Source of the DNA: Rhodospirillales bacterium
GTDB taxonomy: Bacteria; Pseudomonadota; Alphaproteobacteria; ATCC43930; CGMCC-115725
Direction: 5' to 3'
Length of the DNA: 64,000 bases
Assembly: GCA_027315365.1 (NCBI GenBank)
Contig: DAHUYF010000140.1
Coordinates: 1-64,000, forward strand
Numbering within the stretch: position 1 is the first letter of the stretch; the number at the start of each line of letters is the position of its first letter. Made by a program: the position numbers and the translations under genes. The notes beneath the pieces were generated by a model that had not been told where the DNA came from, ran no database searches, and saw only the letters and a program-made list of their open reading frames with translations. Below are positions 46,406 to 49,562 of the stretch, piece after piece.

Positions 46406-46419
46406 TTGATTTAGATCAA
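46406..46419. promoter_or_regulatory. CRP/FNR-family (FNR/Anr/FixK-type) binding site
   Basis: TTGAT-TTAG-ATCAA is a perfect match to the FNR/Anr/FixK consensus TTGAT-N4-ATCAA. Its centre at 46412.5 lies 41.5 nt from a predicted start at 46454, the class II activator geometry. It lies 95 nt upstream of the cytochrome-porin ATG, predicting induction at low oxygen. Confidence 0.8.
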
Positions 46420-46441
46420 GCAGAGACGGCCCCAGGGAGGT

Positions 46442-46447
46442 TATGAA
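46442..46447 (+). promoter_or_regulatory. Predicted -10 element for the cytochrome-porin operon
   Basis: TATGAA resembles TATAAT and sits exactly where the -10 hexamer belongs if the upstream FNR-type box is centred at -41.5 (start near 46454). This leaves a leader of about 60 nt. The ATG inside this hexamer is therefore unlikely to be a start codon. Confidence 0.5.
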
Positions 46448-46513
46448 GGCGGCTAGGACATTGCGGCGCCGCTTCGCGAAGGTGGTGTTACGAGATTAGG
46501 AGGAGTGGGGGTT

Positions 46514-47914
46514 ATGGACTCGATCTTGTCTTGGCGGGCGGCCAAAGCGGTCGCCGTGGCGCTCGCAACCCTGGCCGCGGCCTTGGCCGCCTCCTCGCCG
46601 GCATCGGCGACGCCGGGCTTCGCCCGGCAGACCGGCCTTGCCTGCGAAGCCTGCCACACCGTCTTCCCAGAGCTGACGCCCTTCGGCCGGCTGTTCAAGC
46701 TGAATGGCTATGTCTTCAGCAACGTCAAGCAGCTGCAGGACATCAACGAGAAGGACCAGAGCACGCTCGCCATGAACGAGATCGCGCCCATCGGGCTGCA
46801 GCTCCAGGCCTCGTTCACGTCGATCGGCCATTCCGTGCCGGACAACGGCACGGGAGTAAACGATCTGGCGCAAAAGAACTCGGTCGAATTTCCGCAGGCG
46901 CTCAGCCTCTTCTATACCGGCAAGATTTCCGACAATCTCGGCGCCTTCCTGCAGGTGACGTGGAATCCCACCTCCAACTCCATCGGCATCGACAATTCCG
47001 ATCTGCGCTTCGCGGATCACGCCTCGGTCCCGGCAATCGGCGCCAGCGACTTCATCTACGGCGTCACCCTCAACAACAACCCGACCTCGCAGGACGTGTG
47101 GAACAGCTCGCCCGCTTGGACCTATCCCTACATCCTCTCCAATATCATGGTGTCGCGGATTGCCTCGGCCCTGATCGACGGCCAGCTTGCCCAATCCTCG
47201 GCCGGCCTCGGCGGCTACGTCTGGGCCTACAACCACCTCTATCTTGAGTTCAGCGGCTATCACTCGGCGGTCACGGGGTTCAGCAACCACTACACCAGCG
47301 GTCCGGAGCTCGACAGCACCTACAGCGGCACCCGAATCGACGGCCTCGCACCCTATTGGCGCGCCGCCTGGGAACAGGATTGGAGCCGCAACTCGCTGAT
47401 GTTCGGCACCTACGGCATGCAGGCCAACACCCATACCCAAGGCATCGGCTTCCAGGGACCGACCAACTCCTTCACCGACGTCGCCATCGACTCCCAGTAC
47501 CAGTATATCGGCGACAACAACATCTTGTCGGCCTATGCCACATGGATCCATGAGGACCGCACCTTCAACGCGGTTACGACCAGCAATCCGAGCAATACGC
47601 TCAACACGGTTCGCGTCACCGGCAGCTACTTCTACGACCGCAAGATCGGCGGCTCGCTGCAGTACTTCTCGACCACCGGCAGCAGCGACGCCCTGCTCTA
47701 CGGGGCCGGGACGGTCACCGGCAGCGCCAATGGCAGTCCGGACACGCAAGGCATCATCGCCGAGCTCGATTATCTGCCGTGGCTCAACACCAAGCTCGGT
47801 GTACAATACACCGCCTATACCAAGTTCAACGGCGCGTCGACCAATTACGATGGCAGCGGCCGCAACGCATCCGACAACAATACGCTCTACGTCTTCGTCT
47901 GGACCGCCTTCTAA
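46514..47914 (+). CDS. Fused monoheme cytochrome c / outer-membrane porin, Cyc2-like architecture
   Basis: A 466-residue protein with a signal peptide (residues 1-32), one heme site CEACH (44-48) in FARQTGLACEACHTVFPELTPFGRLFKLNGY, and then about 400 residues of beta-barrel ending in VWTAF. This CxxCHxxxPxLxxFGxxFKxNGY pattern fused to a barrel is the layout of Cyc2, the outer-membrane iron oxidase of acidophilic and neutrophilic iron oxidisers, and of the wider fused cytochrome-porin family. The barrel portion here is rich in Asn/Tyr/Ser loops. It would carry electrons across the outer membrane through a single heme. The start has AGGAGGAG 10 nt upstream. A di-heme c4-type cytochrome follows 16 nt later. 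Fe(II) as the donor is only a hypothesis. Confidence 0.8.
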   Translation: MDSILSWRAAKAVAVALATLAAALAASSPASATPGFARQTGLACEACHTVFPELTPFGRLFKLNGYVFSNVKQLQDINEKDQSTLAMNEIAPIGLQLQASFTSIGHSVPDNGTGVNDLAQKNSVEFPQALSLFYTGKISDNLGAFLQVTWNPTSNSIGIDNSDLRFADHASVPAIGASDFIYGVTLNNNPTSQDVWNSSPAWTYPYILSNIMVSRIASALIDGQLAQSSAGLGGYVWAYNHLYLEFSGYHSAVTGFSNHYTSGPELDSTYSGTRIDGLAPYWRAAWEQDWSRNSLMFGTYGMQANTHTQGIGFQGPTNSFTDVAIDSQYQYIGDNNILSAYATWIHEDRTFNAVTTSNPSNTLNTVRVTGSYFYDRKIGGSLQYFSTTGSSDALLYGAGTVTGSANGSPDTQGIIAELDYLPWLNTKLGVQYTAYTKFNGASTNYDGSGRNASDNNTLYVFVWTAF

Positions 47915-47930
47915 GAAGGACGACGCACCC

Positions 47931-48539
47931 GTGAACGCACATGCATCGGCTCTGGCCATCGCTTGCCTCCTCCTCGCCGCCCCCGCCGCCGCCGCGGCGG
48001 AGGCCACCGGCGCCGCGCCCGACCTCGTCCAGCGCGAGTGCTCGACCTGTCACGGCCTGCACGGCATCAGCACGGCGCCGACCTTCCCCAACCTCGCCGC
48101 CCAGCCCGCAGCCTATCTCGAGGCGCAGCTCAAGGCGTTCCGCGACCATTCGCGCGCCGATCCGCATGCCCAGGCCTTCATGTGGGGCATGGCGGCACAG
48201 CTCACCGACGCCAAGATCAAGGAGATCGCCGAGTATTTCTCCAAGCAGCCGCCCGCGCCCGGCACCTCGGCCGATCCCGCCGAAGTTGCCGCCGGCCGGC
48301 AGATCTTCGAGAACGGCATCGACGCGCAGGGCGTGCCCGCCTGCATGGCCTGCCATGGTGACAAGGCGCAGGGCAACGAGGTGTTTCCGCGCCTCGCCGG
48401 CCAGCATCGCGGCTATATCGAGAAGCAGCTCGAGGCCTTCGCGTCGAACCTGCGCGAGAACGAGATCATGCATCAGAACGCGACCAAGCTGACCGCGCGG
48501 CAGATCAGCGATGTCGCGGCGTTCCTGAGCTCGATGTAG
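47931..48539 (+). CDS. Di-heme cytochrome c4-type protein
   Basis: A 202-residue periplasmic protein: signal peptide to about residue 23, then two similar cytochrome domains with CSTCH (37-41) and CMACH (about 136-140). PTFPNLAAQPAAYLEAQLKAFRDHSR in the first domain and EVFPRLAGQHRGYIEKQLEAFASNLREN in the second are the paired P.LAGQ...Y...QL..F..G.R repeats of cytochrome c4. Distal Met ligands are likely MWGMAAQLTD and MHQNATKLT. A GTG start is used; no in-frame ATG precedes the signal peptide. In Acidithiobacillus the Cyc2 electron acceptor chain includes a c4-type cytochrome, so this is the probable periplasmic partner of the upstream cytochrome-porin. Confidence 0.88.
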   Translation: MNAHASALAIACLLLAAPAAAAAEATGAAPDLVQRECSTCHGLHGISTAPTFPNLAAQPAAYLEAQLKAFRDHSRADPHAQAFMWGMAAQLTDAKIKEIAEYFSKQPPAPGTSADPAEVAAGRQIFENGIDAQGVPACMACHGDKAQGNEVFPRLAGQHRGYIEKQLEAFASNLRENEIMHQNATKLTARQISDVAAFLSSM

Positions 48540-48962: not shown

Positions 48963-48976
48963 TTGATCCAGATCAA
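48963..48976. promoter_or_regulatory. Second perfect CRP/FNR-family binding site
   Basis: TTGAT-CCAG-ATCAA again matches the FNR/Anr/FixK consensus exactly. It lies 62 nt upstream of the DUF1127-DUF6455 gene and 35 nt after the small secreted protein stop. A -10 hexamer at the class II distance is not obvious here. Confidence 0.75.
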
Positions 48977-49037: not shown

Positions 49038-49562
49038 ATGACCGAGACCCTGAACTGGCCGCGCAAGGCGCGCGCCTCCATGGCCCGGTTGCCGGATTGG
49101 ATCCGGCTCGCGCTCCAAGGCTGGCGCGAGCACGGCCGGCTGCGCCGTGAACTGGAGGGGCTGCGCCAGAACGACGAGCTGGAGCGCACGCTGGCCGATA
49201 CCGGGCTCTCCCAGAGCGACGTGCCGCGGCTGATGCACGCGCATCCGCGCACGCCGCAGCAGCTCGCCGACATGATGCGGCGGCTGGGCATCAGGCGCGG
49301 CCAGCTGCCGCACGACGCGCAAACTGCCGGGCGCCTGCGGGCGATCGAATGGCGGTGCGGCGACTGCGCCACCTGGCGCCAATGCCGGGCCTGGCTTGCC
49401 TCCGGCGAGGCGACCGAGGAGTACCGCGCGTTCTGTCCCAATGCCGCGGCATTCGACGAGCTGCGCCGGGCGGAGGCCGCCGTCGCGGACGAGACGCTCC
49501 CGGAATCGTCCGGCGTCGTCGCCGAGTTCCCGCCCGTTCGAGGCCAGGCCCGCGGGCGTTAG
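49038..49562 (+). CDS. DUF1127-like / DUF6455-like small protein with a Cys cluster
   Basis: A 174-residue cytoplasmic protein. The first part (GWREHGRLRRELEGL....LADTGLSQSDV, residues 28-62) follows the DUF1127 pattern, an Arg-rich helix pair ending in an L.D.GLSR.D motif often found in small stress proteins. The second part has WRCGDCATWRQCRAWL and YRAFCPNAAAFDEL, giving Cys107, Cys110, Cys116 and Cys133, the DUF6455 layout. The four Cys could bind a metal or Fe-S centre. It has its own perfect FNR-type box upstream, implying expression at low oxygen. Molecular function is unknown. Confidence 0.7.
   Translation: MTETLNWPRKARASMARLPDWIRLALQGWREHGRLRRELEGLRQNDELERTLADTGLSQSDVPRLMHAHPRTPQQLADMMRRLGIRRGQLPHDAQTAGRLRAIEWRCGDCATWRQCRAWLASGEATEEYRAFCPNAAAFDELRRAEAAVADETLPESSGVVAEFPPVRGQARGR

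Follow-up and report, generated by a model that had tools for sequence, protein, structure and literature searches.

A Cyc2-type fused cytochrome-porin and a c4-type cytochrome behind a candidate FNR operator in a Rhodospirillales bacterium

We analyzed a stretch of 64,000 nucleotides (the window) of a Rhodospirillales bacterium (GenBank assembly GCA_027315365.1, contig DAHUYF010000140.1, positions 1 to 64,000), in which a pair of forward-strand genes lies behind a candidate oxygen-responsive operator. The first gene, called cyc2-like here, occupies 46514-47914 including the stop and encodes a fused monoheme cytochrome and 16-strand porin of 466 aa; its 466 codons run from 46514 to 47911, the stop is at 47912-47914, the best start is the ATG at 46514 with GGAGGAG ahead of it, and the last residue is Phe. 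The second gene (47931-48539 with its stop, coding 47931-48536) begins with a GTG 16 nt after the cyc2-like stop and encodes a c4-type, Cyc1-like di-heme cytochrome of 202 aa. Upstream of both, TTGATTTAGATCAA (46406-46419, not assigned to a strand) is a perfect TTGATN4ATCAA palindrome and a candidate operator of the FNR/FnrL type. The initial annotation of the locus had the coordinates, the CEACH heme site, the Phe end and the di-heme c4-type gene 16 nt further on right, as read from the open reading frame and its translation. An artefact or pseudogene was ruled out by the open frame and by a 77% identical copy, also with a c4 neighbor, in a congener.

Since no usable model of the fused protein came from Pfam or NCBIfam (the scan returned only Cytochrom_C_2, at E 0.18 and under its cut-off), membership in the family was judged by the features that define Cyc2 in the available text of PMC8406198, namely AXPXFAR[Q/K][T/Y] before the heme site, a single CXXCH, PXL four residues on, a length of at least 365 aa and a porin barrel of 16 strands. 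In the cyc2-like protein, a signal-peptide-like stretch is followed by ATPGFARQTGLACEACHTVFPELTPFGRLFKLNGY and then by about 400 residues up to the final Phe. The putative signal peptide (residues 1-32, 46514-46609, + strand) was recognized by eye from its hydrophobic stretch and the junction ASA-TPGF. The cytochrome domain (46607-46711, + strand) is made of ATPGFARQT, the CEACH heme site, PEL and GRxFKxxGY, which fall in invariant or nearly invariant alignment columns. ATPGFARQT agrees with the defining motif and is separated from the CXXCH by three residues, as in the compared relatives of other types, while the single CXXCH of the 466 aa is the CEACH within ATPGFARQTGLACEACHTVFPELTPFG, read on as CEACHTVFPEL with its PXL.

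The barrel was modeled with AlphaFold2 from the mature protein and 73 relatives. The model obtained (mean predicted local distance difference test score 89.9, predicted TM-score 0.89) has helices in the first 31 residues, two short strands, and then 16 strands, counted by us, from mature residue 61 to about 434 (46790-47911, + strand). Foldseek placed it closest, among solved structures, to AlgE (E 1.5e-8, TM-score 0.44) with general porins next, and VIA-align matched it to OmpC (Z 22.4, root-mean-square deviation 3.1 over 294 residues) and to OprP (Z 21.3, 3.6 over 316 residues). The porin matches include OprP and OprO, which served the Cyc2 authors as the basis of their own model (PMC8406198). 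A sequence search against solved structures found no relative of the cyc2-like protein, the best E of profile A1 being 0.038. The length of 466 aa and the 16 modeled strands agree with the Cyc2 definition, and the structure prediction suggested in the initial annotation bears out its estimate of about 400 barrel-like residues. With one fused heme motif and 16 strands, a conduit of the MtrCAB, PioAB or MtoAB type was ruled out.

One position of the first barrel strand sets this protein apart. A scan of named genomes gave at least 591 stretches related to the cyc2-like protein, the best 80 of which were used, and alignment A2 holds 73 of these 80 loci. Mature residue 64 (46799-46801) is Met in 72 of the 74 rows of A2, Gln in the window protein, and Gln in one further row; within its strand it falls in register with the conserved polar residues at 62, 66, 68 and 70. 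In a wider set of 139 rows, described below, Met occupies the column in 115, Gln in the window protein, its congener and L085, mostly Val in presumed zetaproteobacterial rows of the Cluster 1 type, and Arg in 5 of 5 Cluster 3-like rows. Met64 as a general heme ligand of the family was ruled out, with Met in only 115 of the 139 rows; in Cluster 2 proteins the residue might lie next to the heme, which is a guess. In the residue-55 column, Met occurs only in the window protein and its congener among the 139 rows, most others having Leu, Ile or a gap.

The second protein contains two CXXCH and two Cytochrom_C stretches (Pfam PF00034, E 1.1e-20), hence, in tandem, the two mono-heme c domains that characterize c4 and Cyc1 proteins of about 180-200 aa, and its start looks signal-like by eye. 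Its best solved relative is 1H1O, matched over the full length with 160 bits (E 4.7e-46), the next c4 reaching 97 bits. We take 1H1O to be Cyc1 of Acidithiobacillus ferrooxidans, with which Cyc2 is partnered in the rus operon, and the partner in the window is of the same kind. The motifs, the barrel model and the tree described below bear out the Cyc2-type fused cytochrome-porin proposed by the initial annotation, and we are nearly certain of both the family and the Cyc2-c4 pairing.

The pairing extends to other genomes. Neighboring genes here, as well as the control regions used below, come from our own simple gene caller, which sometimes takes the wrong strand. A c4 homolog directly follows cyc2 in 55 of 108 testable loci: 35/36 in the clade of the window protein, 19/36 in the sister clade and 1/36 in the rest. 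These 108 are the 127 loci that fit our motif pattern less L069, L141, L174, L175, L165 and L164 and less 13 loci with short flanks; the clade lists were typed by us from the 139-row tree, and the sole match among the 36 others, L074, is not a row of it. The congener also has the pair, its c4 gene being cut by the contig end. The same pair is found near a high-potential iron-sulfur protein (HiPIP) gene on a Caballeronia plasmid, and amid unrelated genes on an Ideonella plasmid. For Acetobacteraceae, the available text of PMC10715153 notes that a gene for a mono- or di-heme cytochrome is often found beside cyc2. In five loci of the host's family (L013, L019, L021, L022 and L023), a mono-heme cytochrome gene lies upstream of cyc2, divergent or codirectional, and in all of them except L022 an exact FNR box stands between or before the two genes. 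In the Bacteroidetes bins L111, L112, L106, L114 and L128, the Cyc2 relative has a mono-heme gene downstream and frames of about 680-830 aa upstream, L111 and L112 having in addition a gene with five CXXCH nearby.

Relatives of the cyc2-like protein were found in 16 of 61 genomes near the host (host included) and in 89 of 398 genomes sampled across the phylum, many of the latter by the N-terminal part only. Altogether, 140 loci held a relative, of which 127 fit the motif pattern and 13 did not. A tree of 139 rows, made by a quick method, was drawn from the 127, 12 of the 13 others (all but L136, a partial that the pattern did not find) and the window protein, L074 having been dropped for its short frame. 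Results placed the window protein among the Cyc2 fused cytochrome-porins, joined to the protein of its congener (Shimodaira-Hasegawa-like approximate likelihood ratio test, SH-aLRT, 100) within a 43-row clade of Alpha-, Beta- and Gammaproteobacteria (SH-aLRT 97), itself inside a 96-row proteobacterial block (SH-aLRT 88) that contains a Cyc2 from a rusticyanin operon. The suggestion that this might be an undescribed branch found no support, the protein being nested in a crowded block and a Cyc2 network having been published already; there, according to the available part of PMC10654088, Acidithiobacillus Cyc2 is linked with Hyphomicrobiales, Burkholderiales, Rhodanobacteraceae and Acidiphilium.

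By its position in the 96-row block, shared with a rus-operon Cyc2, the window protein is most likely a Cluster 2 Cyc2. The rus-operon Cyc2-Cyc1 of Acidithiobacillus, Acidihalobacter and Acidiferrobacter (Cluster 2) has the motifs and the broad clade in common with it. In genome G706, Cyc2 heads a cyc2-cup-coxBACD-ctaAB-rus-like operon with no cyc1 seen between cyc2 and cup, as judged by the order and sizes of the genes and by a rusticyanin match that stays below the curated cut-off. Rusticyanin searches gave nothing above cut-off in 13 out-of-class genomes and, in 369 genomes of another class, one match above cut-off in a genome without Cyc2. Two Cyc2 types, FARQT and FARKY, occur in many sampled genomes of family f59, far from the window clade; from these two types and PMC7029218, as far as its available text goes, we infer that f59 represents Zetaproteobacteria with Clusters 1 and 3. 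The Cluster 1 Cyc2 of Mariprofundus ferrooxydans PV-1, as described in the accessible sections of PMC8406198, is like the window protein in its single heme, 16 predicted strands and AXPXFAR[QK][TY], whereas the presumed zetaproteobacterial rows lie across long, starred branches from the window clade (PV-1 itself is not a row).

The host's own family is split, with 14 other copies in a different clade (SH-aLRT 98). An approximately unbiased (AU) test on a 62-row tree, made after this split had been seen, rejected holding 12 family rows together, window and congener included (p 0.00067); therefore, the genus either got the pair by transfer or keeps an old paralog. This fits the frequent transfer of Cyc2 between lineages described in the available text of a 2025 study of its history (PMC12442345). 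The trimmed Cyc2 rows of L028 (plasmid pACRY03 of Acidiphilium cryptum) and L141 (CP084173, a plasmid labeled Acidithiobacillus ferrooxidans) are identical and their neighbors much alike, from a recent plasmid transfer or from a mixed culture behind the second record; CP084173, the sole plasmid record under an Acidithiobacillus label, was useless as a tree reference, as it carries the same Cyc2 as pACRY03.

Exact TTGATN4ATCAA boxes are rare in the host genome. The 4.97 Mb hold 28 of them, about one per 177 kb, and no site of the reversed control pattern; therefore, an exact box about 100 bp before the cyc2-like gene is unlikely to be there by chance. Allowing one mismatch, the window has four boxes, where shuffled sequence is expected to have 0.34. 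A candidate -10 element, TATGAA (46442-46447, + strand), follows 22 bp after the box, the usual distance in class II activation, and matches TATAAT at 4 of 6 positions; it is the best of 16 offsets printed by a scan that picks the best position, which makes it weak evidence. In host hemN, TATGAA likewise stands 22 bp after an exact box. A sigma-70 scan found no promoter for the cyc2-like gene, a result compatible with an activator-dependent promoter that proves nothing by itself. A second exact box (48963-48976, no strand assigned) lies 2.5 kb downstream of the first, before a DUF6455 gene at 49038 (49038-49562), and probably belongs to a separate unit; the window thus holds two of the 28 exact boxes of the genome.

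We also looked at the genes next to the exact boxes of the host. They include hemN (above its curated cut-off), a norCB-like pair consisting of a cytochrome c subunit and a COX1-family subunit, a hydrogenase maturation protease and a molybdopterin oxidoreductase, so that much of the set is as expected for an FNR regulon. Matches to HTH_Crp_2 occur at 11 places in the host; eight of these loci were read and a regulator frame was clear in two. The FNR-like regulator at L222 has Cx2Cx7C plus a fourth Cys and scores 180 bits with the FnrL model, under its 300-bit cut-off. Both parts of an FNR regulon, an operator in the promoter and an Fe-S regulator of the FNR type in the genome, are present in the sequence. 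Low-oxygen control of the pair, which the initial annotation had proposed, is a prediction that appears likely given the perfect box, hemN and the norCB-like pair behind exact boxes, and the four-Cys regulator.

The association of box and gene recurs among relatives. The exact box was found upstream of cyc2 in 10 of 119 relatives compared to 1 of 396 control regions (Fisher p 2.8e-6), and the loose form TTGAN6TCAA in 27 of 119 compared to 6 of 396 (p 1.8e-13), both p values being overstated since the relatives are kin. The 119 are the 127 motif-fitting loci less four duplicates (L069, L141, L174, L175), the rus-operon copy L165, and L052, L083 and L110 with too little upstream DNA; the window is excluded. 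Exact boxes occur in several lineages, among them the host's family, another alphaproteobacterial bin, L091 (two boxes), and Rhodanobacteraceae (L135), and in the presumed zetaproteobacterial L054 the box is 312 bp upstream.

The host offers several possible destinations for electrons. It has a large subunit of ribulose-1,5-bisphosphate carboxylase/oxygenase (RuBisCO; above its subfamily cut-off) with an adjoining LysR regulator and CbbX, and ccoN of a cbb3 oxidase, CbbX and NirK all score above curated cut-offs; a NiFe hydrogenase domain and four COX1-family matches besides ccoN (one norB-like, one partial) were also found. With RuBisCO, ccoN, NirK and the norCB-like genes in the host, electrons could go to O2 at low tension or to nitrite and NO, and could support carbon fixation. 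At L246:4654-6624 (contig C133), a single frame of 657 aa combines a cytochrome c domain (99-193), a cupredoxin domain (264-338) and, as its C-terminal part, NirK; this three-part fusion could carry its own electron supply. Alphaproteobacterial origin of the host is likely. A search of the assembly for 16S gave no match, and tblastn of a neighboring AMP-binding protein against plasmids had rhizobial sequences as best hits, at about 50%, which lends weak support to Alphaproteobacteria.

Taken as a whole, the best explanation is a low-oxygen-induced electron-uptake unit of the Cyc2-Cyc1 type, to which we give a probability of roughly 0.55. Both proteins would be exported. When O2 falls, an FnrL-like Fe-S regulator would bind the box and switch on the pair; the donor, Fe(II) in solution or a comparable one-electron reductant, would enter the pore and reduce the plug heme. 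The c4 cytochrome would take over the electron and deliver it either to the cbb3 oxidase, at low O2, or to the NirK/NorCB-like branch, and some of the energy might support CO2 fixation by the host RuBisCO. Anatomy and operator come from the sequence and the model, whereas oxygen response, donor, direction and acceptor are what we infer from them. For the direction we lean toward inward flow, and Fe(II) is, with similar reserve, our preferred main donor. According to the argument made in the available text of PMC8406198, a 16-strand pore whose only heme is on the periplasmic side is better suited to Fe(II) in solution than to a mineral or a cathode.

Several observations weigh against this explanation. 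At the window locus, no rusticyanin or oxidase gene adjoins the pair and, unlike in the rus operon, no rusticyanin, cup or cox genes stand beside it. Among three other genomes of the genus searched, the gene was found in one, with a 77% identical Cyc2, and the 420 nt before the mature Cyc2 start of that congener contain no box, either exact or TTGAN6TCAA. The upstream regions of 92 of the 119 relatives lack the box even in its loose form. The change of a near-invariant Met to Gln at residue 64 means that function is not simply transferable from relatives, and the tree has no named chromosomal Cyc2 of A. ferrooxidans, Mariprofundus or Leptospirillum among its rows. No NCBIfam NorB model matched the norCB-like pair, whose designation comes from gene order and general families.

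The main rival is outward flow, in which the pair would be an anaerobic terminal reductase: electrons drawn from H2 or organics would leave by way of c4 and Cyc2 and reduce (chelated) Fe(III) outside the cell. We consider it unlikely, though it is the best placed of the alternatives. It also counts against an uptake unit that A. ferrooxidans has Cyc1B and Cyc2B in a separate two-gene cluster (Norris 2018, as cited in PMC7735108 and PMC10715153) raised anaerobically on H2 or sulfur with Fe(III), according to the available sections of these two papers. As in the window, these are a stand-alone fused cytochrome-porin and a Cyc1-type cytochrome, expressed without oxygen just as the window pair is likely under low-oxygen control, and in the host a hydrogenase maturation protease lies behind an exact box. 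Unlike the window pair, which was compared with it by description only, Cyc2B-Cyc1B belongs to an acidophile and is assigned to Fe(III) reduction, and no FNR box is mentioned for it in the available text of the same two papers. On general thermodynamic grounds, the potential of Fe(III) oxides at neutral pH is too low for them to take electrons from a c4/Cyc2 chain at about +0.2 V. The potential given for Cyc2PV-1 is 208 mV, and by the argument of the same authors a single-heme pore should not reach a mineral (PMC8406198, in its available part). The terminal oxidases and nitrite reductase of the host are moreover better acceptors, and at neutral pH we rank inward flow as more likely than outward.

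It is also conceivable, with slightly less probability, that the box is real and serves something else, or that the pair is not controlled by oxygen. In favor of this, the box is missing in the congener and most relatives, and several exact boxes of the host lie inside genes, others before transport-binding proteins or a DUF3775 gene without obvious oxygen tie, as far as the simple gene caller tells. What speaks against it is the position of the perfect palindrome, some 100 bp ahead of the start and followed at class II distance by the -10-like TATGAA, the enrichment of boxes before cyc2 in several lineages, and the fact that no divergent gene begins near the box.

Oxidation of a different small donor (Mn(II), Cu(I), a phenolic compound or a reduced organic electron shuttle), with iron being incidental, seems to us improbable. 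Carriers found include Trinickia and Paraburkholderia, genera not generally known as iron oxidizers, and M64Q may point to a change at the heme site. The family is also large and mostly uncharacterized beyond iron oxidizers, and its authors allow additional functions; against this, the three Cyc2 with biochemical evidence by 2021, one per cluster, oxidize Fe(II) (PMC8406198, available text).

Proteobacterial Cyc2 relatives beyond the classic iron oxidizers, with adjoining cytochromes, were known before, as the accessible parts of PMC10654088 and PMC10715153 attest; the fresh part is the FNR-type regulatory link before the cyc2-c4 pair. A search of the open-access literature, with most subscription journals outside its reach, found no report of FNR or FixK control of cyc2 in the texts available. 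The rus-operon genes of A. ferrooxidans are under RegB/RegA (PMC5506826, available text), whereas the window pair has an FNR box. PioABC of Rhodopseudomonas palustris is, as the window pair would be, an alphaproteobacterial Fe(II)-oxidation line under a regulator of the CRP/FNR family, in its case FixK. In 2011, Bose and Newman reportedly placed FixK over the Pio genes of this organism. Control of alphaproteobacterial Pio genes by FixK may thus be taken as a precedent in a different conduit, PioABC having a decaheme cytochrome in a 26-strand barrel and not a fused monoheme (PMC8406198, as far as available).

For Cyc2 homologs outside the known iron oxidizers, the question is whether their carriers oxidize iron, and when. 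A recurrent low-oxygen operator before some of these homologs, together with RuBisCO, NirK, the norCB-like pair and the cbb3 oxidase of the host, makes the idea that iron is oxidized only when O2 is scarce a testable one. The pair is relevant, too, to iron oxidation coupled to nitrite or NO, a process with few known, defined points of entry at the outer membrane. A bolder proposal, which we regard as doubtful, is that a hypoxia-switched Cyc2-Cyc1 runs Fe(II) oxidation on nitrite/NO or trace O2 in CO2-fixing alphaproteobacteria, as a horizontally acquired two-gene cassette with a changed heme site (Met64 to Gln in this genus). If so, FNR control would be the mark of Cyc2 users that form a low-oxygen branch and do not at present figure among the iron oxidizers.

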